A model generated the notes under the pieces. The model did not search any database. It saw only the letters and a program-made list of their open reading frames with translations, and was not told the DNA's origin. This document shows positions 10,562 to 24,065 of a DNA stretch of 47,907 nucleotides, in pieces. Positions within the stretch are counted from its first letter, which is position 1. Every line of letters starts with the position of its first letter. The position numbers were made by a program, and so were the translations under genes. Source of the DNA: Streptosporangiales bacterium (GTDB taxonomy: Bacteria; Actinomycetota; Actinomycetes; Streptosporangiales; WHST01); NCBI GenBank assembly GCA_009379955.1, contig WHST01000037.1, positions 1 to 47,907 of the forward strand. The letters are read 5' to 3'.

Positions 10562-12052
10562 TCAGCGCAGGCGCAGCGCCAGGTAGACGTCGACCTGGTC
10601 GGGGAGACGGCGCAGGTCGCGTCCGGTCAGCTGCTCGATCCTGTCGATCCGGTAGCGCAGGGTGTTCACGTGCACGTGCAGCTCGGCGGCGCACTGCGAC
10701 CACGAGCCACCGCAGTCGAGGAACGTCTCGAGCGTGTGCACGAGGTCGGACGTGTGCCGCTCGTCGTACGCGAGGAGCGGGTCGAGCACCCGCGAACGGA
10801 ACGCGTGGCGCACCTCGGTGGAGACGTTCGCCAGGAGGAGCACGTGCGACGCCAGCCGCTCGGAACCCGCGAGGGAGGCGGCGGCCGGGTCGAGCGCGGC
10901 GATCTCGCGGGCCTGCCTCGCCTCGGCCCACGCCCCGGCGAGGCCGTCCACCGACGTGACCGGGTCGCTGACGCCGACGGTCACCCGCATGCCGGACGCG
11001 GCCAGGGCCGGCGCGAGCACGGCGACCGCGTCCCGTGCGACACCGGTGACCCCGCCGGTCAGCTGCGCCACCGCCGCGGCGCCGCCTCCATACCGCGCCC
11101 AGACGTAGTGCCGCGCGACCGGTTCGACCGCCTCGGCGAGCACCGCGGCGGCCTCGTCGCCGTCGGCGACGGCGACGAGCAGGCCCGCTCCCGGGTCGAG
11201 CCCGGCGACGCGCAGACGCGTGGCGACGGTGCCCGGGTCGGTGTCGTCGTCGAGGAGGGTGAACAGGTCGTCGTCGGTACGGTGCTCGCGTAGCCACGTG
11301 TCGAGGTCGAGCGCGACCATCGCGACGAGCTCGTCGGCGACTCCCCGCCGTTCCCGCGACCACCGGGTGTGGTCGTCGTCGACCACGAGCAGCCGGCTCA
11401 CGTGGGGCGGCGCACCCACGCCGAACACCGAGTACCCGTCGGTGCCGCGGTGGGTGACCCGCCGCGGCAGCGGCCCACCGCGTGCGACCTCGGCCGCGAT
11501 CGCCGCGCGCTGCTCGTCGCCGAGGGCGGCCGTCCCCTCGATCGTCCGGCCGGTTCCGGAGAGCACCCAGCACGACAGGCCGAGCTCCTCCGCGACGAGC
11601 CCGAGGACGCCGCCGAGCCGGGTGCCGGCCTCGATGAGCGACCGGTGCCGGCCGAGCAGGGTCGCGAGGTCGGCCGAGCGCCCGGCGGCGAGGCGGCGTA
11701 CGACGTGCTCGGTGATCGTCGAGAACGACACCTCGCGGCCGACGTGGAACAGCGGCAGCCCGTGCCGCTTGCACGCGTCGACCAGGTCACGCGGGACGTC
11801 GTCGAGTGCCGGGTCGCTCGCCCCCAGCGCGACGGCGCCCGCCGCGACGACGTGGGCGACGAACGTCTCGGCGTCGGTCTCGTCGTGCCGCCACATCATG
11901 CCGGTGAGGACGAGCTCGCCGCCCGCGAGGTAGCGGCGCGGGTCGAGCAGGTCGGTGGTGACCACCCAGCGCACCTCGTGGCCGAGCGCCGCCTCGCCGA
12001 CGCGCAGGGACAGCCCGAGCGCCGGAGTCGCGAGCAGCGACCGCAGGTCCAC
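10562..12052 (-). CDS. pucR: PucR-family regulator of purine catabolism
   Basis: A 496-residue protein. The N-terminal PucR-type ligand domain is at about 1-130 (LLDPRRYLAGGELVLTGMMW), the middle is a GGDEF-like fold without catalytic residues at about 290-400, and the C-terminal HTH lies at about 430-495 (AAELHVHVNTLRYRIDRIEQ, then DLRRLPDQVDVYLALRL). The GTG start follows GAGAGGGGAG. It is divergent from the purine operon starting at 12280. Family members sense purine breakdown intermediates and switch on such operons. Its role here as operon regulator is an inference from position. Confidence 0.9.
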   Translation of the reverse strand: MDLRSLLATPALGLSLRVGEAALGHEVRWVVTTDLLDPRRYLAGGELVLTGMMWRHDETDAETFVAHVVAAGAVALGASDPALDDVPRDLVDACKRHGLPLFHVGREVSFSTITEHVVRRLAAGRSADLATLLGRHRSLIEAGTRLGGVLGLVAEELGLSCWVLSGTGRTIEGTAALGDEQRAAIAAEVARGGPLPRRVTHRGTDGYSVFGVGAPPHVSRLLVVDDDHTRWSRERRGVADELVAMVALDLDTWLREHRTDDDLFTLLDDDTDPGTVATRLRVAGLDPGAGLLVAVADGDEAAAVLAEAVEPVARHYVWARYGGGAAAVAQLTGGVTGVARDAVAVLAPALAASGMRVTVGVSDPVTSVDGLAGAWAEARQAREIAALDPAAASLAGSERLASHVLLLANVSTEVRHAFRSRVLDPLLAYDERHTSDLVHTLETFLDCGGSWSQCAAELHVHVNTLRYRIDRIEQLTGRDLRRLPDQVDVYLALRLR

Positions 12053-12227
12053 CGCGCTCCCCTCTCCGTCCCACCGGGCCGGTCACCGCCGGCGCGGATG
12101 AACGTGTCCATTCTCCACGGGGCGGAGGGCCGGGAGGCGGTGCGACTTGGAGGAATCTACGACGGTTCGGCGCTTCCGGGTGGGCGATCTCGTACGGGCG
12201 GCCGGTTGTGGCGAGGTGGGCACGTGG

Positions 12228-12240
12228 CGTGCAATACACG
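12228..12240. promoter_or_regulatory. Possible operator CGTG-N5-CACG before the purine operon
   Basis: The short palindrome CGTGCAATACACG lies about 40 bases upstream of the first purine gene, in the 227-base divergent gap with the PucR gene. It is the clearest symmetrical sequence there and could be the regulator's site. No convincing -35/-10 pair is visible. Confidence 0.25.
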
Positions 12241-12279
12241 TCTCGTGGCACGGATCCAGGGGGGAGGTCGACGGCACCG

Positions 12280-12774
12280 GTGGTGACCCTCGACTCGTTC
12301 AACCGCCTCGAGGCGGAGGCGGCGGCCGCCGCCCTCGCGCCCTGCTGCGCCTCGCCGGGGTGGGCGCAGCGGGTGGCCGGCGGCCGCCCCTACCGCGACG
12401 TGGCGTCCCTCGTCGCGGCGGGTGAGGCGGCGTTCGACGCGCTCGGCCGGCCCGCCGTTGAGGCCGTGGTCGCGGCGCACCCGCGCATCGGCGAACGTCC
12501 GGCAGGGGACGGCCGGGAGTCCGCGTGGTCCAGGGAGGAGCAGTCGAGCGTCCGCACCGCCACGGGTACCGGGGCCGATCTCGCCGCCGCCAACGCCGCG
12601 TACGAGCAGCGGTTCGACCGTGTGTTCCTCGTCTGCGCGACCGGGCTGTCGGCGCTGGACGTGCTGGCCGAGGCGAAGCGACGGCTCGGCAACGACGAGG
12701 CCACCGAGTGGACGGAGACGACCAGGGAGCTGCGGAAGATCGTCCGGCTGCGCTTGACGAAGATGATCCGATGA
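12280..12774 (+). CDS. uraD: OHCU decarboxylase
   Basis: A 164-residue enzyme converting 2-oxo-4-hydroxy-4-carboxy-5-ureidoimidazoline to (S)-allantoin, the last step of urate breakdown to allantoin. AHPRIGE at about 65-71 carries the catalytic His and conserved Gly/Glu; FNRL at the N-terminus and the C-terminal LRLTKMIR are family features. Two adjacent GTG codons (12280, 12283) are possible starts after GGGAGG. It is the first gene of the operon and its stop overlaps the next start as ATGA. Confidence 0.93.
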   Translation: MVTLDSFNRLEAEAAAAALAPCCASPGWAQRVAGGRPYRDVASLVAAGEAAFDALGRPAVEAVVAAHPRIGERPAGDGRESAWSREEQSSVRTATGTGADLAAANAAYEQRFDRVFLVCATGLSALDVLAEAKRRLGNDEATEWTETTRELRKIVRLRLTKMIR

Positions 12775-13094
12775 GCATCTCGACGCATGTGCTCGACGCG
12801 ACGACGGGACGGCCGGCGGCCGGCATGTCCGTCACGCTGTGGCGCTCGACGGGCGACGGCTGGGCCCAGGTGGTGCACGCCCGCACCGACGACGACGGGC
12901 GGATCACGGACTGGCCGTCGCGACCCGGCGTGCACCGGATCGTCTTCGCGACCGGTCCATGGTGGCAGGACCAGGGCAAGGAGGCCTTCCATCCCGAGGT
13001 GGTGGTCACGTTCACCGTCACCGATCCCGACGCCCACCAGCATGTGCCACTGCTGGCGAGCCCGTTCTCCTACACGACCTACCGAGGGAGCTGA
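12771..13094 (+). CDS. uraH: 5-hydroxyisourate hydrolase (transthyretin-like)
   Basis: A 107-residue protein that hydrolyses 5-hydroxyisourate to OHCU. It has the N-terminal STHVLD motif with its catalytic His, the central R of VHRIVF, and the diagnostic C-terminal YRGS. The ATG overlaps the stop of uraD by four bases, which suggests translational coupling. There is no signal peptide, so it works in the cytoplasm between urate oxidase and OHCU decarboxylase, both encoded alongside. Confidence 0.96.
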   Translation: MSISTHVLDATTGRPAAGMSVTLWRSTGDGWAQVVHARTDDDGRITDWPSRPGVHRIVFATGPWWQDQGKEAFHPEVVVTFTVTDPDAHQHVPLLASPFSYTTYRGS

Positions 13095-13096
13095 CA

Positions 13097-13924
13097 ATGG
13101 GCGCCACGCTCGGTGCCAGCAGCTACGGCAAGGCCGAGGTACGCGTCGTCAGGATCGACCGGGACTCCCCCCGTCACGAGATCACCGATCTCGATGTCGA
13201 CGTCGCGCTCGGCGGCGACCTCGAGGACAGCCACCTGCACGGCGACAACGCCCACGTGCTACCGACCGACACGATGAAGAACACGGTGTACGCGCTCGCG
13301 CGCGACGGCGTCGGAGGCATCGAGTCGTTCGGTGAACGGCTGGCGCGTCACTTCGTCGACACCCAGCCGCCGATCCACACCGCACGGGTGCGGCTGCGCC
13401 GGCATCCGTGGGAACGCGTCGGCCCGCACTCGTTCAGCCGCGGCGAGGGCGGCGAGGTCCGTACCGCCGAGGTGTCGTACGACGGGTCGACCGTCTCGGT
13501 GTGGGCGGGCCTGCGCGACCTGCTGCTGCTCAACTCGACCGACTCGGAGTTCACCGGCTTCGCCGTCGACGAGTACACGACGCTCGAGCCGACCACCGAC
13601 CGCATCCTCGCGACGGCCGTGACGGCGACGTGGCGGTACGCCGACACGTCGGGAGACCTCGCCGAGGCGTACACGGCGGCTCGCGAGGGGCTCGTCTCCG
13701 CGTTCGCGGACACCTACTCGCTGGCGCTGCAGCAGACGCTCTACGCCATGGGCGAGCGCGTGCTCGACCGCGTGCCCGCGGTCGCCGAGGTGTTGCTCGC
13801 ACTGCCGAACCGGCACCACTTCCTCGTCGACCTGGCGCCGTTCGGCAGGGACAACCCCGGCGAGGTCTTCCACGCCGCGGACCGTCCGTACGGCCTCATC
13901 GAGGGGACGGTGAAGCGGACATGA
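13097..13924 (+). CDS. Urate oxidase (uricase)
   Basis: A 275-residue cofactor-free oxidase turning urate and O2 into 5-hydroxyisourate and H2O2. The catalytic Lys-Thr pair sits in the early part of the protein: Lys in SSYGKAEVR (about residue 11) and Thr in DTMKNTVYALAR (about residue 59). NSTDSEFTGF at about 150 is the conserved substrate region. Length is slightly below the usual 290-300. The gene starts two bases after uraH and overlaps the next gene by ATGA. Confidence 0.95.
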   Translation: MGATLGASSYGKAEVRVVRIDRDSPRHEITDLDVDVALGGDLEDSHLHGDNAHVLPTDTMKNTVYALARDGVGGIESFGERLARHFVDTQPPIHTARVRLRRHPWERVGPHSFSRGEGGEVRTAEVSYDGSTVSVWAGLRDLLLLNSTDSEFTGFAVDEYTTLEPTTDRILATAVTATWRYADTSGDLAEAYTAAREGLVSAFADTYSLALQQTLYAMGERVLDRVPAVAEVLLALPNRHHFLVDLAPFGRDNPGEVFHAADRPYGLIEGTVKRT

Positions 13925-14799
13925 CGACCACCGCGCTGGACACTCCCGTCTTCCTGCGACCGACGACGCTCGCCGAGGCGCTCGCGGCGAAGGCGGCGCA
14001 TCCCGACGCCGCACCGATCACCGGCGGCACCGACATCATGGTCGAGCTGAACTTCGACGTACGCCGGCCGGCGGTGCTGCTCGACCTGTCCGAGGTCGCC
14101 GAGCTCCGTACGTGGGAGCGCGACGGCGATCGGGTCCGCGTCGGCGCCGCCGTCACGTACACCAGGATCGTCCATGAGCTCGCGGACGAGCTGCCGGGCC
14201 TCGCCCTGGCCGCACGCACCGTCGGGTCGCCGCAGATCCGCAACAGGGGCACCGTCGGCGGCAACCTCGGTGCGGCGTCTCCCGCGGGCGACTGCCACCC
14301 GCCGCTGCTCGCGACCGGCGCCGACGTGGAGGTCGCAGGTGTGCGCGGCACGCGGCTCGTCCCGGTGGCGGAGTTCTTCACCGGCGTGAAGCGCACCGCC
14401 CTCGCGGCGGACGAGCTGGTGACCGCGGTACTCGTGCCACGGAAGCGGGGGCCGCAGCAGTTCGCGAAGATCGGCACCCGTAACGCCATGGTCATCGCGG
14501 TCTGCTCGTTCGCGCTCGCCCTCGACACGTCGGCCCGCACCGTGGGCACCGGCATCGGCTCGGCGGGACCGACGCCGCTGCGCGCTCCCCAGGCGCAGGA
14601 GCTCGCCGCCGCCGAGCTCCCGTGGGAGTCGCGCGACGACATCGACGTACGCCTCGCGACGAGGTTCGGCGAGCTGGTCGCGGCGGCGGCACGGCCGATC
14701 GACGATGTCAGGGGCACGGCGGCGTACCGGCGGCTCGCGCTCGCGGTGCTGGCCAGGCGGTGCCTTCGCTGGGCGTGGCAGGAGTACCGATGCGCGTGA
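13921..14799 (+). CDS. Xanthine dehydrogenase FAD-binding subunit
   Basis: A 292-residue protein of the CoxM/XdhB type. FAD is held by ITGGTDIMVELN (about 34-45) and by IRNRGTVGGNLGAASPAGDCHPP-type residues at about 102-125; the TVGGN motif is clear. A C-terminal CO-dehydrogenase flavoprotein domain follows. It carries electrons from the iron-sulfur subunit to NAD+ or another acceptor. The start overlaps the uricase stop, and its 3' end overlaps the iron-sulfur subunit gene by ten bases. Confidence 0.94.
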   Translation: MTTTALDTPVFLRPTTLAEALAAKAAHPDAAPITGGTDIMVELNFDVRRPAVLLDLSEVAELRTWERDGDRVRVGAAVTYTRIVHELADELPGLALAARTVGSPQIRNRGTVGGNLGAASPAGDCHPPLLATGADVEVAGVRGTRLVPVAEFFTGVKRTALAADELVTAVLVPRKRGPQQFAKIGTRNAMVIAVCSFALALDTSARTVGTGIGSAGPTPLRAPQAQELAAAELPWESRDDIDVRLATRFGELVAAAARPIDDVRGTAAYRRLALAVLARRCLRWAWQEYRCA

Positions 14800-15254
14800 C
14801 CCTCACCGTCAACGACGAGGCCAGGGTGGCCGACGACGTCTGGCCCGGCGAGAGCCTGTTGTCGATGCTGCGCGAGCGGCTCGGCCTCACCGGCTCCAAG
14901 AACGCCTGCGAGCAGGGCGAGTGCGGCTCCTGCTCGATCTACCTCGACGACACGCTGGTCTGCTCGTGCCTCGTCGCCGCCGGTCAGGCGGAGGGACACC
15001 GCGTACGCACGGTCGAGGGCCTGACGGACGGCGACGGCGACGCCGTCAAGGCCGCGTTCGTCGAGGCCGGGGCCGTGCAGTGCGGGTTCTGCACGCCGGG
15101 ACTCGTCGTCAGCACCCACGCGCTGCTCGACCGCGACGCCGACCCCACCGACCCCGATATCCGTGAGGCGCTCGCCGGCAACCTGTGCCGCTGCACTGGG
15201 TACGAGAAGATCCTCGACGCCGTACGCCTGGCTGCCGAACGGAGGCGCGCATGA
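14790..15254 (+). CDS. Xanthine dehydrogenase 2Fe-2S subunit
   Basis: A 154-residue protein with both expected clusters. The ferredoxin-like N-terminal domain has ACEQGECGSCSIYLDDTLVC (about 38-58), and the helical domain has CGFCTPG (about 98) and CRCTGYEKI (about 134). It passes electrons from the molybdenum centre to FAD. The ATG at 14790 is preceded by AGGAG and overlaps the preceding gene by ten bases; its stop overlaps the next ATG. Confidence 0.95.
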   Translation: MRVTLTVNDEARVADDVWPGESLLSMLRERLGLTGSKNACEQGECGSCSIYLDDTLVCSCLVAAGQAEGHRVRTVEGLTDGDGDAVKAAFVEAGAVQCGFCTPGLVVSTHALLDRDADPTDPDIREALAGNLCRCTGYEKILDAVRLAAERRRA

Positions 15255-16627
15255 GCAGCTCCACGTCGCGGCTCGTCGTCGAGAACGCGGCGATCGCGAC
15301 CGTCGACGCCGGGGGCACCGAGCACGCCGGCGGCCACGTGGTCGCGCTCGACGGCCGGATCGCCGCCGTCGGCGCAGGACCGGCGCCGGCGTACGACGAC
15401 GACGTGCCGACCACGCGCGTCGACGGATCCGGCTGCCTCGCCACGCCCGGACTCGTCAACACCCACCACCACCTCTACCAGTGGGCGACACGCGGTCTCG
15501 CGACCGACCACACGCTGTTCGACTGGCTCGTCGCGCTCTACCCCGTGTGGGCGCGGATCGGCGTCGACGACGTGCGCGCCGCCGCGCGCGCCGGGCTGGG
15601 CTGGCTCGCTCTCTCGGGCTGCACGACGAGCACCGACCACCACTACGTCTTCCCGCGAGGCGGCGGCGACCTGCTCGCGACGGAGATCGAGGCGGCGTCC
15701 GAGATCGGGTTACGGTTCCAGCCCACGCGCGGCTCGATGGACCTCGGCGAGTCCGACGGCGGGCTGCCGCCCGACCACGTCGTCGAGGACGTCGACGCGG
15801 TCCTCGCCGCGACCGCCGACGCGATCGCACGTCACCACGACCCGTCGTTCGACTCGATGACGAGGATCGCGGTCGCGCCCTGCTCGCCGTTCTCGGTCAG
15901 CACGGACCTGATGAAGCGGTCGGCCGAGCTCGCGCGGAGTGAAGGCGTGCGCATGCACACCCACCTCGCCGAGACGAGGGACGAGATCGAGTTCTGCCGC
16001 GCGACGTTCGGTCGCGACCCGGTCGAGTACGTCGACTCGCTCGGCTGGCTCGGTCCCGACGTCTGGCTCGCCCACACCGTGCACCTCGACGAGGCCGGCA
16101 TCGGACGGCTCGCCGTGACCGGCACCGGTGTCGCGCACTGCCCGAGCTCCAACGCGCGGCTCGGCACCGGCATGGCGCCGGTACGCGCACTGCTCGACGC
16201 AGGCGTCGACGTCGGTCTCGGCGTCGACGGGGCGGCGTCGCAGGAGGCCGGCATGCTCGTCGAGGAGCTGCGGCAGGCGCTCTACACCGCGCGGCTGCGC
16301 GGCGGCCCCACCGCGATGTCCGCACGCGACGCGCTCGCGCTCGGCACCATCGGCGGCGCGCGCGTACTCGGCCGGGGCGACGAGATCGGCTCGCTCGAGG
16401 TCGGCAAGCTCGCCGACGTCGCGCTGTGGCGGCTCGACGGCCTGGGCCACGCCGACATCGCCGACCCGGTGACCGCGTTGGTGCTCGGCCCGCCGGCGCC
16501 GTTGCGGCTGCTCGCGGTCGGCGGACGTCCGGTCGTCGAGGACGGTGAGCTGCGCACCGCAGACGCCGGCGTACTCGCCCGCGACGCCCGCGCGGCCCAC
16601 CGTCGACTCACGGCGGCTTCGCCGTGA
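15251..16627 (+). CDS. 8-oxoguanine/guanine deaminase-type amidohydrolase
   Basis: A 458-residue TRZ/ATZ-family amidohydrolase. Metal ligands are visible in NTHHHLYQW (about 68-76), MHTHLAE (about 234) and the late Asp of GVDGAASQEAG (about 330). The block TLFDWLVALYPVWARI is typical of the branch that includes 8-oxoguanine deaminase and atrazine-type hydrolases. Its position between two xanthine dehydrogenase subunit genes suggests it deaminates guanine or an oxidised purine so that the product can enter the pathway. The substrate is not proven by sequence. Confidence 0.88.
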   Translation: MSSSTSRLVVENAAIATVDAGGTEHAGGHVVALDGRIAAVGAGPAPAYDDDVPTTRVDGSGCLATPGLVNTHHHLYQWATRGLATDHTLFDWLVALYPVWARIGVDDVRAAARAGLGWLALSGCTTSTDHHYVFPRGGGDLLATEIEAASEIGLRFQPTRGSMDLGESDGGLPPDHVVEDVDAVLAATADAIARHHDPSFDSMTRIAVAPCSPFSVSTDLMKRSAELARSEGVRMHTHLAETRDEIEFCRATFGRDPVEYVDSLGWLGPDVWLAHTVHLDEAGIGRLAVTGTGVAHCPSSNARLGTGMAPVRALLDAGVDVGLGVDGAASQEAGMLVEELRQALYTARLRGGPTAMSARDALALGTIGGARVLGRGDEIGSLEVGKLADVALWRLDGLGHADIADPVTALVLGPPAPLRLLAVGGRPVVEDGELRTADAGVLARDARAAHRRLTAASP

Positions 16628-18909
16628 CACCACCGGCGGCGGAGCTCCTCGCCACGACCCCCGGCGGGGTCGGGGACGACCCCGTCCGTCCCGACGGCCG
16701 ACTCAAGGTGGACGGCGCGTTCCCGTACGCGTCCGACCTCACCGCGCCCGGGATGCTCTGGGGCGCCACGCTGCGCAGCCCGCATCCGTACGCGCGGATC
16801 CTGCGCCTCGACGTACGCGCGGCGTCCGCGCTCCCCGGTGTGCACGCGGTGCTGACCCACGCCGACGTGCCCGGTGCCAAGCACCACGGCCAGGACGACA
16901 GGGACCAGCCGGTGCTGGCGATCGACGTCGTCCGCTTCCACGGCGAACCCGTCGCGATCGTCGCCGCCGAGCATCCGGAGACCGCGCGCCGCGCGCTCGC
17001 GCTGATCGAGATCGCCTACGAGGTGCTCGAGCCGGTCACCGACGCGGTGCGCGCGGCGTTCGACCGCGACTGCCCGCGGGTGCACGCCGAGGGCAACGTG
17101 GTGCGCCACCAGCCCGTACGCGTCGGCAACCCCGAGGTGGCGACGGCCGACGTCGTCGTCGCGCACACGTACCACGTCGGCATGCAGGACCAGGCGTTCC
17201 TCGGTCCCGAGGCGGGACTCGCGATCCCGGCGGACGACGGCGGCGTCGACCTGCACGTGGCGACGCAGTGGCTGCACGTCGACCTCGCCCAGGTCGCGCC
17301 GTGCCTCGGGCTGCCCGAGGACAAGGTGCGCATGACGCTCGCCGGCGTCGGCGGCGCGTTCGGCGGGCGCGAGGACCTGTCGATGCAGGTACACGCCTGC
17401 CTGCTCGCGCTCCGTACGGGCCGGCCGGTGCGCATGGCGTACAACCGCGAGGAGTCGTTCTACGGTCACGTGCACCGGCACCCGGCGACGCTCCGGTACG
17501 AGCACGGCGCCGACGCCGACGGCCGGCTCGTGTACGTGAAGGCCGAGATCGTCCTCGACGGCGGCGCGTACGCCGCGACCACGCGCGCCGTCGTCGGCAA
17601 CGCGGCGTCGCTCGGCGTCGGCCCGTACGAGGTGCCGCACGTCGCCATCGACGCGTACGGCGTCTACACCAACAACCCGCCGTGCGGGGCGATGCGCGGG
17701 TTCGGTGCCGTGCAGGCGTGCTTCGCGTACGAGTCGCAGATGGATGCGCTCGCGGCGGCGGTCGGTCTCGACCCGGTCGAGATCAGGGTGCGCAACGCCG
17801 TGCACGAGGGCTCGCGGCTCGCCACCGGTCAGGTGCTCGACTCGCCCGCTCCACTCGCCGAGATCCTGCGCGAGCTCGACGCGATGCCAATGCCGACGGC
17901 GCGTGCGGAGAGCGATGCCGACCTGCGGTCCCTGCCGGGCGGAGTCGCCAACACGACGCACGGCGAGGGTGTGATCCGCGGCGTCGGGTACGGCGTCGGC
18001 ATCAAGAACCTCTGCTTCTCCGAGGGTTTCGACGACTACTCGACCGCACACCTACGGCTCGAGGTCGTCGACGGCGAACCCGTCGTCCGCGTCCACAGCG
18101 CCGCCGCCGAAGTGGGCCAGGGGCTCGTGACGGTGCAGGCGCAGATCGCACGCACGGAGCTCGGCGTCTCCCGCGTCGTCCTCGACCCCGCCGACACGAA
18201 CGTCGGCTCCGCGGGCTCGTCGTCGGCCTCGCGGCAGTCGTACATGACCGCGGGCGCGATGCGTGCGGCGTGCGCTCGGATCCGCGACGAGATCGCCGCG
18301 CGCCTCGGGATCGCGCCGGACGACCTCGTTCTCTTGAACGGAGGCGCCGTCTCCTCCGCGCTGCCCGCGCCCGTGCCGCTCGCCCGGGTCGTGGGTGACG
18401 GTCCGATCGACGTGACCGAGGTGTACCGGCACCGGGCGACCAAGCCGATGGACCCGGTCACCGGGCAGGGCGACACCCACGTGCAACTCGCGCTCTGCGC
18501 ACACCGCGCGGTCGTCGACGTCGACACCGAGCTCGGCCTGGTCAAGGTCGTCGAGCTCGCCGCCGTCGAGGACGTCGGCAGGGTCGTCAACCGCACCGCG
18601 GTCGAGGGCCAGATCCACGGCGGTACGGCGCAGGGACTCGGCCTCGCCGTGCTCGAGGAGATGGTCCTCGACGGCGGCCTGGTCAGGAACCCGTCGTTCA
18701 CCGACTACCTGATCCCGACGATCCTCGACATGCCGCCGATGCGGCTGGCGATCCTCGAGCATCCCGACCCGAACGCCCCGTACGGCCTGCGCGGCGTCGG
18801 CGAGCCGGCCACGCTGTCGTCCACGCCCGCGGTGGTGGCGGCGATCCGCGCGGCGACGGGTCGGGCGTTGCGCAGGGTGCCGGTACGACCAGACCACCTC
18901 GTGACGTAG
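16624..18909 (+). CDS. Xanthine dehydrogenase molybdenum-binding subunit
   Basis: A 761-residue large subunit that hydroxylates xanthine to urate at the molybdopterin. GTG start overlaps the previous stop (GTGA). The aldehyde-oxidase/xanthine-dehydrogenase a/b hammerhead is at about 20-130. The cofactor-binding domain follows with GVGGAFGGRED (about 240), PPCGAMRGFGAVQ (about 350) and AAEVGQG (about 495). GVGEPATLSSTPAV near the C-terminus holds the expected catalytic Glu. No XdhC-type maturation gene is seen nearby, so sulfuration must be provided elsewhere. Confidence 0.95.
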   Translation: MTPPAAELLATTPGGVGDDPVRPDGRLKVDGAFPYASDLTAPGMLWGATLRSPHPYARILRLDVRAASALPGVHAVLTHADVPGAKHHGQDDRDQPVLAIDVVRFHGEPVAIVAAEHPETARRALALIEIAYEVLEPVTDAVRAAFDRDCPRVHAEGNVVRHQPVRVGNPEVATADVVVAHTYHVGMQDQAFLGPEAGLAIPADDGGVDLHVATQWLHVDLAQVAPCLGLPEDKVRMTLAGVGGAFGGREDLSMQVHACLLALRTGRPVRMAYNREESFYGHVHRHPATLRYEHGADADGRLVYVKAEIVLDGGAYAATTRAVVGNAASLGVGPYEVPHVAIDAYGVYTNNPPCGAMRGFGAVQACFAYESQMDALAAAVGLDPVEIRVRNAVHEGSRLATGQVLDSPAPLAEILRELDAMPMPTARAESDADLRSLPGGVANTTHGEGVIRGVGYGVGIKNLCFSEGFDDYSTAHLRLEVVDGEPVVRVHSAAAEVGQGLVTVQAQIARTELGVSRVVLDPADTNVGSAGSSSASRQSYMTAGAMRAACARIRDEIAARLGIAPDDLVLLNGGAVSSALPAPVPLARVVGDGPIDVTEVYRHRATKPMDPVTGQGDTHVQLALCAHRAVVDVDTELGLVKVVELAAVEDVGRVVNRTAVEGQIHGGTAQGLGLAVLEEMVLDGGLVRNPSFTDYLIPTILDMPPMRLAILEHPDPNAPYGLRGVGEPATLSSTPAVVAAIRAATGRALRRVPVRPDHLVT

Positions 18910-18924
18910 AGCCTGGAGGCCTTC

Positions 18925-19311
18925 GTGGTGCACATGTTCCTCAACGGCGGCGGCATGGCGGACGGACCACTGCACCCGATGTTGGGTGGCGCACCTCTGG
19001 TGGCACGGACGTGGTCGGCACCGCACTACCGCTTCTACGCCGTGCGCGGCGAGTACCCCGCGATGGTGCGCGCGGCCGACGGCGAGGAGGGCCACCGGGT
19101 CGCCGGCGAGGTCTACGACCTGCCCCTCGACGTGCTCCGCGACTCCCTGCTGCCCGTCGAGCCGGCGGAGCTCGAGCTCGGCGTCATCGAGCTCGACGAC
19201 GGCGCGCCGTCCCTGGCGATGGTGCTGCGCAAGGCGTACCGCGGCGATCCCGCGCTCGTCGACATCTCGGAGCTTGGCAGCTGGCGTGCGTACCAGGACG
19301 CGCATGGGTGA
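18925..19311 (+). CDS. Free-standing allophanate-hydrolase C-terminal-type domain
   Basis: A 128-residue protein starting at GTG 18925 after TGGAGG. It resembles the C-terminal domain of allophanate hydrolase (AtzF), a gamma-glutamylcyclotransferase-like fold: FLNGGGM at the start, then APHYRFYAVRGEYPAMVRA, a central GHRVAGEVYDLP and a final SWRAYQ. In AtzF this domain handles the carboxylated product of the amidase half. No amidase half is encoded here. Lying between xanthine dehydrogenase and allantoinase, it probably acts on a ureido or carbamoyl intermediate, but the reaction is unknown. Confidence 0.78.
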   Translation: MVHMFLNGGGMADGPLHPMLGGAPLVARTWSAPHYRFYAVRGEYPAMVRAADGEEGHRVAGEVYDLPLDVLRDSLLPVEPAELELGVIELDDGAPSLAMVLRKAYRGDPALVDISELGSWRAYQDAHG

Positions 19312-20623
19312 CGAGCTGGCGATCAGGTCCACCCACGCGGTCCTGCCCGACGGTGAGCGCGCCGCGACGGTGACCGTGTCGGACGGACGCATCACCGGCG
19401 TGCTCGCCCACGACGCGGCGGTCGACGCCGCCGAGGTCGTCGACCTCGGCGGCCACGCGCTCCTCCCCGGCCTCGTCGACTCTCACGTCCACGTCAACGA
19501 GCCAGGCCGTACGGAGTGGGAGGGCTATGCGTCCGCGACGCGAGCCGCCGCCGCGGGCGGTGTCACCACGATCGTCGACATGCCGCTCAACTCGTTGCCG
19601 CCGACGCTCGACCCGGCCTCGCTCGACGCCAAGCGCGACGCGGCACGGGGACGTGCGCACGTCGACGTCGGCTTCTGGGGCGGCGCCGTGCCGGCGAACC
19701 TCGGCCGGCTGCACGCGCTGCACGACGCGGGCGCGCTCGGCTTCAAGTGCTTCACCACCGACTCGGGCGTACCGGAGTTCCCGCCATTGTCGTGGGACGA
19801 GGTGCGCGCCGCGCTCGCGGAGCTCGCCGCGTTCGACGGCCTCCTGATCGTCCACGCCGAGGACTCCGCCACGCTCGCCGCCGCACCCGCCGTGCACGGG
19901 AAGGCGTACGCAGGCTTCCTCGCGTCGCGTCCCGTCGCCGCGGAGACCCGGGCGGTCGCACGGCTCGCGGAGCTCGTCGCGGCGACGGGCGCCCGCGCCC
20001 ACGTGCTGCACCTGTCGGCGGCCGAGGCCGTCGCGGAGGTCGCGTCCGCGCGTGCGGATGGCGTACGCCTCACGGCCGAGACGTGCCCGCACTACCTGAC
20101 GCTCGCCGCCGAGGACGTCCGCGACGACGCCACCGTCTTCAAGTGCTGCCCGCCGATCCGTCCCGGCGCCAACCGCGAGGTGTTGTGGGAGGCACTGGCG
20201 GACGGCACGATCGACTGTGTCGTGTCGGACCACTCGCCGTGCCCGCCCGCTCTCAAGCGCGGCGGGTTCGCGTCGGCGTGGGGCGGCATCGCGTCCGTCC
20301 AGCTCGGCCTGCCGGTGGTGTGGACGCAGGCACGCGCGCGCGGCCACGGCCTCGGTGACGTCGCGCGTTGGATGGCGGCGGGACCGGCCACGCTCGCCGG
20401 CCTGCGCCACAAGGGACGCATCGCCGCCGGGTGCGACGCCGACCTCGTCGCGTTCGCCCCGGACGCGGAGTGGGTGGTCGATCCCGCGACGCTGCACCAC
20501 AGGCACCCACTCACGCCCTACGCCGGCCGACAGGTGACGGGTGCCGTGCTCGACACGTGGGTGCGCGGGCGTCGTTGCGACCACCGACCTGGCGGTCGGT
20601 TGCTGAGCCGGGAGGCGGCATGA
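19304..20623 (+). CDS. allB: Allantoinase
   Basis: A 439-residue cyclic amidohydrolase opening allantoin to allantoate. Zinc ligands are in DSHVHVNEPGRTEWEGY (about 59-75), the carboxylated Lys in GFKCFTTDSG (about 147), His in VHAED (about 184) and VLHLSA (about 235), and the catalytic Asp in VSDHSPC (about 308). ATG at 19304 overlaps the upstream gene by eight bases. It feeds the allantoicase encoded next. Confidence 0.95.
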   Translation: MGDELAIRSTHAVLPDGERAATVTVSDGRITGVLAHDAAVDAAEVVDLGGHALLPGLVDSHVHVNEPGRTEWEGYASATRAAAAGGVTTIVDMPLNSLPPTLDPASLDAKRDAARGRAHVDVGFWGGAVPANLGRLHALHDAGALGFKCFTTDSGVPEFPPLSWDEVRAALAELAAFDGLLIVHAEDSATLAAAPAVHGKAYAGFLASRPVAAETRAVARLAELVAATGARAHVLHLSAAEAVAEVASARADGVRLTAETCPHYLTLAAEDVRDDATVFKCCPPIRPGANREVLWEALADGTIDCVVSDHSPCPPALKRGGFASAWGGIASVQLGLPVVWTQARARGHGLGDVARWMAAGPATLAGLRHKGRIAAGCDADLVAFAPDAEWVVDPATLHHRHPLTPYAGRQVTGAVLDTWVRGRRCDHRPGGRLLSREAA

Positions 20624-21657
20624 TCGAGGACTTCACCACACTGCCCGACCTCGCGGTGCGCGCCGTCGGCGGCGGGGTCGTCGCCGCGAACGACGACCTG
20701 TTCGCCGACAAGGAGAACCTCGTCCGTACCGAGGAGCCCGTCCACCACCCGCGCACCTTCGGCGCCAAGGGCCAGGTGTACGACGGCTGGGAGACCCGCA
20801 GGCGCCGTACGTCGGGACACGACTGGGCGATCGTGCGGCTCGGCGTGCCAGGAATCGTGCATGGGGTGGTCGTCGACACGGCGTTCTTCCGCGGCAACTT
20901 CCCGCCCGAGTGCTCGGTCGAGGCCTGCACCGTCGACGGCTACCCGTCACCCGCGGAGCTCGAACGTGCCACCTGGACGACCATCGTCGACCGGTCGTCA
21001 CTCGCCGGCGACGTGCGCAATGCGTTCACTGCCAACGGTTCCGGGCCCTACACGCATGTCCGGCTGTCCGTCTACCCCGACGGCGGTGTCGCCCGGCTGC
21101 GCGTGCACGGCGAGCCGGTGCCCGATCCGCGCGCGTTCGCCGACCTCCCGCTCGACCTCGTCGCCCTCGTCAACGGCGGCCGCGTCGTCGACGCGTCGAA
21201 CCGCTTCTACTCGCGGCCGGACAACCTGATCATGCCGGGACAGGCCGCGGTGATGGGCGACGGCTGGGAGACCGCGCGACGCCGCGACGACGGCAACGAC
21301 TGGGTGCTGCTGCGTCTCGCCGGCCGCGGGGAGGTCCGCGTGGTCGAGATCGACACGACGCACTTCGTCGGCAACGCACCGGGATCGGCCGCCCTGCGCG
21401 GCGTCGACGTGGACGACGGGGTCGATCCCGGTGCCGGCGCCACGTGGTCCGACCTGCTGCCAGAGACCCGGCTGCAGCCTGACACCCCACATCGGTTCGT
21501 CCTCCCACCGTCGGGTCCCGTCACGCACGTGACGCTCGATGTGTACCCGGACGGCGGCCTGGCCAGGCTGCGCTGCTTCGGCAGCCTGACCCAGGACGCG
21601 TACGAGAGGATGCTGCGACGACGCTGGCCGGACACGGCCGCTGGTCAAGTCACGTAG
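20620..21657 (+). CDS. alc: Allantoicase
   Basis: A 345-residue enzyme splitting allantoate into ureidoglycolate and urea. It shows the family's internal duplication: NDDLFADKENLV...YDGWETRRRR...HDWAIVRLG in the first half, and NRFYSRPDNLI...GDGWETARRR...NDWVLLRLA in the second. Each half ends in VYPDGG-ARLR. The ATG overlaps the stop of allB. It is the last gene of the operon, and no ureidoglycolate lyase follows. Its last 13 bases overlap the convergent OmpA-domain gene. Confidence 0.95.
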   Translation: MIEDFTTLPDLAVRAVGGGVVAANDDLFADKENLVRTEEPVHHPRTFGAKGQVYDGWETRRRRTSGHDWAIVRLGVPGIVHGVVVDTAFFRGNFPPECSVEACTVDGYPSPAELERATWTTIVDRSSLAGDVRNAFTANGSGPYTHVRLSVYPDGGVARLRVHGEPVPDPRAFADLPLDLVALVNGGRVVDASNRFYSRPDNLIMPGQAAVMGDGWETARRRDDGNDWVLLRLAGRGEVRVVEIDTTHFVGNAPGSAALRGVDVDDGVDPGAGATWSDLLPETRLQPDTPHRFVLPPSGPVTHVTLDVYPDGGLARLRCFGSLTQDAYERMLRRRWPDTAAGQVT

Positions 21658-23330: not shown

Positions 23331-24065
23331 ATGCCCGGATTGTCCGTACGTCTTCCCAGCACGGAGCAGGGACTGAGTCAGGACGAGGAGTACTGCCTCG
23401 TCGTCGAGGACGGGCGTGAGCGGCGCATCCGCTTCCACGACTACCACGAGATCTACACCGTCCCCGGTCTGTACGAGCAGCTCTTCAGCGAGCTGCTCAA
23501 GTGCTCGTCGCCGCAGATCATCGCGTCGTCGCTGGTGGAACAGGTCAAGAAGGCGGGCGAGTCGGTCGCCGACCTGCACGTCCTCGACCTCGGCGCGGGC
23601 AACGGCATGGTGGGCGAGGAGCTGCGCAAGCTCGGCGCCGGGTCACTCGTCGCCGCCGACATCATCGAGGAGGCCGCCCAGGCCGCGCGACGCGACCGTC
23701 CGCGGGTCTACGAGACGTACTACGTGGGCGACATCCGCGCGCTTCCCGACGACGCCGAACGCGACCTGCAGGCGCGCACCATCACCTGCATGACGTGCGT
23801 CGCCGCGCTCGGCTTCGGCGACATCCCGCCGTCCGCGTTCCAGGCGGCGTACGACCTCGTCGAGCCGGGTGGCTGGGTCGCCTTCAACATCAAGGACGCG
23901 TTCCTCGAGAACGTCGAGGAGGGTGGCTTCGCCGCCCTCATCCGCGACATGATCGCCGACGGCCGGCTGCAGGTGTGCTCCGAGCAGACGTACGTCCACC
24001 GGCTCTCCGTGAGCGGCGACGAGCTGCCCTACGTCGCGATCGTCGCGCGCAAGGCCACGAACTGA
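23331..24065 (+). CDS. SAM-dependent methyltransferase (class I)
   Basis: A 244-residue protein, ATG after GAGGAG. The Rossmann core carries motif I VLDLGAGNGMVGEEL (about 84-98), an acidic residue ending strand 2 (AADI, about 109), and motif IV-like region with ITCMTCVAALGFGD at about 150. The YDLVEPGGWVAFNIKD block is typical of small-molecule methyltransferases. The N-terminal 60 residues (RRIRFHDYHEIYTVPGLYEQ) recall the bacterial methyltransferases related to WBSCR27. The substrate is unknown. It stands alone between convergent neighbours. Confidence 0.85.
   Translation: MPGLSVRLPSTEQGLSQDEEYCLVVEDGRERRIRFHDYHEIYTVPGLYEQLFSELLKCSSPQIIASSLVEQVKKAGESVADLHVLDLGAGNGMVGEELRKLGAGSLVAADIIEEAAQAARRDRPRVYETYYVGDIRALPDDAERDLQARTITCMTCVAALGFGDIPPSAFQAAYDLVEPGGWVAFNIKDAFLENVEEGGFAALIRDMIADGRLQVCSEQTYVHRLSVSGDELPYVAIVARKATN

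Follow-up and report, generated by a model that had tools for sequence, protein, structure and literature searches.

The purine-degradation operon and its small AH_C gene

The window, by which we mean the whole 47,907-nt stretch analysed here, carries a purine-degradation operon together with a divergent gene for a PucR-type regulator (Table 1). Between the genes for the xanthine dehydrogenase molybdenum subunit and allantoinase lies a short gene, present in the list of open reading frames and confirmed by reading the sequence, which encodes 128 aa from a GTG start placed 15 nt past the stop of the molybdenum subunit gene. Its overlap with the allantoinase gene suggests, at the level of sequence, that the two are translationally coupled. 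That this frame is a real gene follows from a 66%-identical orthologue in the same-genus genome G443, where the order xdh-AH_C-allantoinase is kept. A search of the window's genome returned no second AH_C match.

Table 1. Features of the purine-degradation operon in the window, with the evidence for each assignment.
Feature	Coordinates	Strand	Evidence
PucR-type purine catabolism regulator, divergent	10562..12052	-	PF07905 93.8 bits, PF13556 86.3 bits
OHCU decarboxylase UraD	12208..12774	+	TIGR03180 147.9 bits, cut-off 139.4
5-hydroxyisourate hydrolase (transthyretin-like)	12771..13094	+	PF00576 117.4 bits
Uricase	13097..13924	+	PF01014 181.8 bits, two stretches
Xanthine dehydrogenase FAD subunit	13921..14799	+	NF043083 162.8 bits, under cut-off 310; operon position
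Xanthine dehydrogenase Fe-S subunit	14790..15254	+	NF043084 164.5 bits, under cut-off 217; operon position
8-oxoguanine deaminase	15251..16627	+	NF006055 655.4 bits, cut-off 532
Xanthine dehydrogenase molybdenum subunit (PucD type)	16624..18909	+	TIGR03196 807.5 bits, cut-off 783.65
Shine-Dalgarno-like TGGAGG, 5 nt 5′ of the AH_C GTG start	18914..18919	+	read from sequence
Stand-alone AH_C protein (128 aa), candidate ureidoglycolate lyase	18925..19311	+	Pfam AH_C 87.2 bits; AlphaFold2 pLDDT 94.9
8-nt overlap of the AH_C and allantoinase genes (allantoinase ATG at 19304)	19304..19311	+	read from sequence
Allantoinase AllB	19304..20623	+	TIGR03178 571.7 bits, cut-off 357.85
Allantoicase, product ureidoglycolate + urea	20620..21657	+	TIGR02961 403 bits, cut-off 277.9

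OHCU decarboxylase, 5-hydroxyisourate hydrolase and allantoicase are all encoded in this operon, which rules out the AH_C protein as a stand-in for any of the three. OHCU and allantoate, two of the substrates put forward in the original prediction, are unlikely for the same protein because their own enzymes, OHCU decarboxylase and allantoicase, sit in its operon. A ureidoglycolate lyase of the AllA type hidden elsewhere was likewise ruled out: PF04115 has no match anywhere in the window's genome, nor does it appear among the Pfam matches of the window protein at E 0.01.

Domain content and predicted fold

The window protein matches the Pfam family AH_C (PF21986) with 87.2 bits against a cut-off of 27, over residues 2-124 and profile positions 1-122 of 123. 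At E 0.01 the only other Pfam family reported is the GGACT fold family PF06094 (25.8 bits, cut-off 22.8); no amidase domain was found within the 128-aa frame by this search, and TIGR02713 reached only 49 bits, far under its cut-off of 511. An AlphaFold2 model built from a 58-sequence alignment is confident (pLDDT 94.9, pTM 0.88) and resembles most closely the chain 5C5Z, E. coli c4763 (Foldseek E 9.6e-11, Z 20.3), followed by residues 483-614 of the K. lactis allophanate hydrolase/urea amidolyase (Z 19.6-20.0; for 4iss, the KlAH C domain, Z 19.9 over 126 residues with an rmsd of 1.5). Weaker matches are YkqA (Z 16.7), PH0828 (Z 15.6) and human GGACT (Z about 14).

The gene is thus confirmed as encoding a complete AH_C domain of GGCT-type fold without an amidase. 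The original prediction had proposed an AH_C-type domain standing free between xanthine dehydrogenase and allantoinase, and both its identity and its setting are borne out. Of the two outcomes that it named as fatal, a fold other than that of the AtzF C-terminal domain and an amidase partner, the model gives the same type of fold as the KlAH C domain and the operon is devoid of amidase genes.

Known AH_C proteins and related enzymes

The original prediction had also supposed that such an activity was not described for the lone domain; lone AH_C domains as such, at any rate, are on record. The closest solved chain, 5C5Z, is c4763 of uropathogenic E. coli CFT073, a free-standing protein of 137 aa. 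We equate it with the gene C_RS22505 on two grounds, the match of the translation to 5C5Z wherever the two are aligned and the PDB title. RefSeq names C_RS22505 'allophanate hydrolase-related protein', and its gene order is cysteine hydrolase, DUF2877, fdrA, DUF1116, arcC, C_RS22505 and cytosine permease. The lone state of AH_C is therefore not new, and the point of interest is its placement in purine operons. In open-licence PMC literature, as far as its accessible text goes, we found no lone AH_C protein linked to purine breakdown.

The window protein and c4763 share the stand-alone state, the fold, the lack of the VGAH histidine and the residues Asn7, Met11 and Glu79, but c4763 has neither Glu84 nor Arg102, groups with the fused domains in our tree and belongs to an operon of another kind (L087 10439-16403, corresponding to CFT073 4529438-4535402), with FdrA, DUF1116, DUF2877, carbamate kinase and a BiuH-like hydrolase. 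The latter scores 279.8 bits with NF050097, under the cut-off of 370. This operon possibly encodes an energy-yielding route for biuret/allophanate or for another ureide.

With the C domain of allophanate hydrolase/urea amidolyase (K. lactis 4ISS/5I8I; AtzF) the window protein has in common the AH_C family, the fold, Glu62, Tyr35 and Trp120. That domain, however, is fused after an amidase and carries the VGAH histidine, and the fused actinobacterial C domains (30/30 rows) lack Asn7, Glu79, Glu84 and Arg102. GGACT (3JUB/3JUD) shares the superfamily fold and the PF06094 match, yet its identity over the structural alignment is 21-22% and it differs from the window protein in that the latter has a ureide pathway context. 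The catalytic glutamate of human GGACT is E82. The PDB title of 3jud describes an E82Q mutant.

Gene neighbours of AH_C across Actinomycetota

PF21986 matches were found in 85 of the 394 class-sample genomes, the majority in long open frames of the kind that fused genes should give. Twenty stretches were taken around matches in short or unclear frames, a selection that left out, for instance, those of G307, G242, G324 and the second one of G161. Seven of the 20 have an AH_C copy near purine genes (L040-L043, L046, L049, L056) and eight are of a hydantoinase type, seven of them by their neighbours (L044, L045, L047, L051, L052, L054, L055) and L057, on a short contig, by sequence. In L058 AH_C occurs with FdrA- and carbamate-kinase-like genes (labelled by eye) and in L048 it follows a gamma-glutamyltransferase-like gene (226 bits, under the cut-off of 358). 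No purine gene was recognised in L050, L053 and L059, where the VGAH-type histidine is kept.

Neighbours in the hydantoinase-linked group are hydantoinase- or allantoinase-like genes and carbamoylase genes. Scores over the cut-offs were obtained for the allantoinase of L047 (391.6 bits), the allantoate amidohydrolase of L054 (402.7 over 399) and the dihydropyrimidinase of L044 (406 over 393).

A scan of named genomes with eight purine-type rows as queries gave 177 relatives, and the best 80 were kept, a set biased to the window's own type since both the queries and the selection favor it. Every one of these best 80 of 177 lies in a stretch, reaching up to 10 kb to either side, that also contains one or more purine or glyoxylate genes. 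The direct upstream neighbour among them is an NCS2 purine permease (40), a xanthine dehydrogenase maturation factor (18), allantoicase (9), an unassigned gene (7), the xanthine dehydrogenase molybdenum subunit (4) or a gene on the opposite strand (2). Directly downstream of the same 80 we find a gene on the opposite strand (29), hydroxypyruvate isomerase (25), an unassigned gene (9), glycerate kinase (7), allantoinase (5), the contig end (3) or allantoicase (2). Again among the best 80 of 177, the stretch contains xdh genes in 21 loci where allantoicase and Gcl/Hyi/TSAR are both missing, and in seven loci all three groups are missing.

Two runs recur, AH_C-Hyi-TSAR-Gcl-GlxK-AllB-Alc and Hyi-TSAR-Gcl-GlxK-(AllB)-Alc-AH_C, and in nine loci AH_C comes directly after allantoicase, closing the glyoxylate run. 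The window's order XDH-AH_C-AllB-Alc is also that of Rhizocola hellebori and two Actinoallomurus, and two Allokutzneria loci have it except for one maturation gene. Neighbours were called by a codon-score gene caller, which missed AH_C in 8/80 loci (there it was placed by HMM), and labelled by BLASTP. One run was checked with NCBIfam: glyoxylate carboligase, tartronate semialdehyde reductase and glycerate kinase scored over a cut-off, and hydroxypyruvate isomerase (270 bits) under its cut-off of 353.

On the Amycolatopsis palatopharyngis contig NZ_PQHZ01000002.1 (L104, L105), the xdh-AH_C pair occurs twice, about 155 kb apart and in opposite orientation, either by a large duplication or by an assembly artefact.

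Several actinobacterial ureide clusters also contain a DUF6986 gene (PF22484; 451 bits in L179) near allantoinase/allantoicase genes (L078, L080-L084, L179 2719-3807, L056 8738-10012); it adjoins AH_C in L056, and in L179 a malate synthase A gene (714 bits) is close by. A glyoxylate or ureidoglycolate enzyme is a possible reading of DUF6986; considered as an alternative lyase, it is found both with and without AH_C.

A distinct clade with its own residue signature

In a tree of 78 rows, built on only 130 columns, the lone rows of both the purine and the hydantoinase type stand together, apart from c4763 and the fused domains; the separating branch has a length of 1.0 and 100/99 support. A 37-row purine set (support 100/92) includes the window protein. 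The purine-type rows of L046 and L056 lie outside this set, so that the purine label requires two changes on the tree. The phylogeny of stand-alone copies and the inspection of their neighbours, both proposed as checks in the original prediction, thereby returned a distinct lone clade and, among the best 80 of 177 relatives, purine/glyoxylate neighbours.

Residues were counted over 132 rows (88 purine-type, 8 hydantoinase-type, 30 fused, c4763 and 5 others). Position 10 is histidine in 30/30 fused rows and Gly or Ala in 96/96 rows of the two lone clades, with Gly in the window protein. By alignment this position is residue 492 of the K. lactis urea amidolyase, and the VGAH motif is also present in AtzF. 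In a 2013 K. lactis study His492 was reportedly catalytic, and the C domain is said to decarboxylate N-carboxycarbamate. Conversely, Asn7, Met11, Glu79 and Glu84 are found in 96/96 rows of the two lone clades against 0/30 fused rows, and Arg102 in 95/96 against 0/30. Glu62 is present in 131/132 rows, and the purine-type clade is otherwise 55-66% identical to the window protein. Judged by these alignments, the purine-type lone AH_C clade is distinct from the fused domains and from c4763.

Lone AH_C proteins that retain the histidine seem to exist outside the two lone clades as well; L050 and L053 carry separate 144-aa lone AH_C genes beside substrate-binding-protein-like genes.

Co-occurrence with routes to ureidoglycolate

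From the best 80 loci, 50 were chosen for spread and their 49 genomes were searched. Allantoicase is encoded in 45 of these 49 purine-type AH_C genomes vs 133 of the 394 class-sample genomes (Fisher test p about 1e-15, which ignores relatedness and serves as description only), while AllA is present in one and absent from 48. Uricase was found in 21/21 genomes tested and allantoinase over cut-off in 16/16, in both cases including all four genomes without allantoicase, namely Tamaricihabitans (L090) and three Prauserella (L106, L110, L121).

At first sight counter-examples, these four genomes each have a match to (S)-ureidoglycine aminohydrolase. In the allantoinase region of Tamaricihabitans this enzyme scores 467.7 bits with NF008376 (cut-off 338), and the protein is also over the cut-off of NF040771, 'bifunctional allantoicase/(S)-ureidoglycine aminohydrolase'. 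Used as a query, it retrieved itself in one genome and a 59-61% identical match in the three Prauserella, and no match in 11 genomes (10 with AH_C and allantoicase, plus the window's own). With 45 allantoicase and four aminohydrolase genomes, 49/49 therefore encode an enzyme expected to yield ureidoglycolate, an inference that for the second route, which also needs allantoate amidohydrolase, rests on the aminohydrolase matches.

The same-genus genomes are less uniform. G443 keeps the order UraD-HIUH-Uox-XDH-AH_C-AllB, and no allantoicase or AllE match was found at this locus or in 113 kb of the 114-kb contig. Allantoinase is directly followed there (L197 11646-11906) by a gene like that at 23331-24065 of the window (methyltransferase-like by eye). 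G444, which is 77% complete, gave no AH_C match.

In the class sample AllA matches are found in just 6/394 genomes. Of the 133 genomes with allantoicase, nine are known to have purine-type AH_C (G307 being counted by genus and 55% identity) and four have AllA, so about 120 use neither gene.

A candidate ureidoglycolate lyase and its alternatives

Ureidoglycolate lyase of the AllA/DAL3 type releases urea and glyoxylate, is nickel-dependent and has a cupin fold, and its substrate, of no more than moderate stability, breaks down spontaneously as well, according to the accessible text of PMC3793230. The window operon encodes allantoicase, the source of this substrate, and has no AllA. For the window AH_C protein our best explanation, to which we give about even credence, is a ureidoglycolate lyase unrelated to AllA; on top of what was computed here (the domain with its fold and lone state, the operon, the clade with its residue pattern, and the co-occurrence), we infer the substrate, the reaction and the catalytic residues. 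The original prediction had spoken of a carbamoyl or ureido intermediate, and action on a ureido intermediate is supported as a candidate role, with the comparative co-occurrence data pointing to ureidoglycolate; taken as a whole, that earlier interpretation is partly supported.

As we picture it, the protein would be the AH_C enzyme of the ureide branch, converting (S)-ureidoglycolate to glyoxylate and urea after allantoinase and allantoicase. It would share with AllA/DAL3 (PF04115) the reaction and the pathway position but neither the cupin fold nor kinship, thus doing the job of the nickel cupin by other means. Glu62 would be the general acid/base that accepts the proton of the carbinol and donates one to the ureido nitrogen as it leaves, and Asn7, Glu79, Glu84 and Arg102, common to the clade and its sister but not to the fused domains, may shape the pocket for the ureido acid. 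The lyase reading is favored because such a reaction, a carbinol collapse with loss of the ureido nitrogen, would suit a fold with a near-invariant proton-moving glutamate, and because the run AH_C-Hyi-TSAR-Gcl-GlxK that recurs in related loci would spend the glyoxylate. Against it stand the class-sample genomes with allantoicase, of which roughly 120 of 133 have neither purine-type AH_C nor AllA, the spontaneous decay of ureidoglycolate, the 113 kb of the G443 contig without an allantoicase match, the sister clade with its hydantoinases and, among the best 80 of 177 relatives, the commonest upstream neighbours (NCS2 permease and xanthine dehydrogenase maturation factor), the 21 loci with xdh but without allantoicase, Gcl, Hyi or TSAR and the seven with none of these groups.

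Several of these observations would fit a protein that acts elsewhere in the pathway, as a racemase of ureidoglycolate or allantoin or as a helper in purine uptake or oxidation. The upstream permease (40/80) and maturation factor (18/80), the 21/80 loci with xdh only and the retention of AH_C in G443 without allantoicase at the locus all speak for it, and allantoicase itself can cleave one enantiomer of ureidoglycolate. We nevertheless regard such a role as unlikely: in nine loci AH_C directly follows allantoicase at the end of the glyoxylate run, and the match to allantoicase or ureidoglycine aminohydrolase in 49/49 genomes is not something that an upstream role requires. A different chemistry on the same pathway, in which ureidoglycolate is cleaved hydrolytically, or a carbamate is decarboxylated as proposed for the allophanate hydrolase C domain, to give NH3 and CO2 instead of urea, appeals to homology and fold; the KlAH C domain and its N domain catalyse sequential reactions, as stated in the available portion of PMC5770610. 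The histidine of VGAH, kept in 30/30 fused rows, is nonetheless replaced by Gly or Ala in all 96 lone rows, and the operon yields urea through allantoicase anyway, which makes this chemistry improbable.

Catalysis may be absent altogether if the protein binds one of the pathway enzymes and serves as a module for oligomerisation or regulation. AtzF deprived of its C-terminal fragment is equally active on biuret with an altered oligomeric state, in what is accessible of PMC3944691, and by analogy the AH_C fold may be structural in some proteins; the 8-nt coupling to allantoinase would agree with this. But a clade whose members are otherwise 55-66% identical to the window protein hardly varies at Glu62 and at the Asn/Glu/Arg set, and the direct neighbours differ between lineages, so that we hold a non-catalytic role to be distinctly improbable. 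Least credible is a split allophanate hydrolase, of which the protein would be the C half and whose amidase would be encoded elsewhere. Eight amidase-family matches do exist in the window's genome, yet compared with the AtzF amidase domain they reach 30% along the full length in L032 and 44% across 147 residues in L038/L039, whereas fused enzymes reach 40-48% over nearly the full length. Along their length these amidases thus lie further from AtzF than the fused enzymes do, the VGAH histidine is lost and the window's operon has no amidase, and we reject this explanation as very improbable.

Significance for purine breakdown in Actinomycetota

With allantoicase in 133/394 class-sample genomes and AllA in only 6/394, the known gene does not account for how these bacteria convert ureidoglycolate to glyoxylate and urea. 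Part of this gap becomes testable with a specific candidate that has a confident model and a clear residue signature. A lyase role, if true, would also correct the family name 'allophanate hydrolase-related', which points to another reaction. More broadly, and at somewhat less than even confidence, we speculate that a GGCT-fold lyase family unrelated to AllA fills the missing purine step in a broad set of Actinomycetota and shares ancestry with the allophanate hydrolase C domain, in which case other ureido acids would be the substrates of the hydantoinase-linked sister clade. If this is true, one small fold serves both the C-N cleavage of ureido carbinols and the last step of allophanate breakdown.
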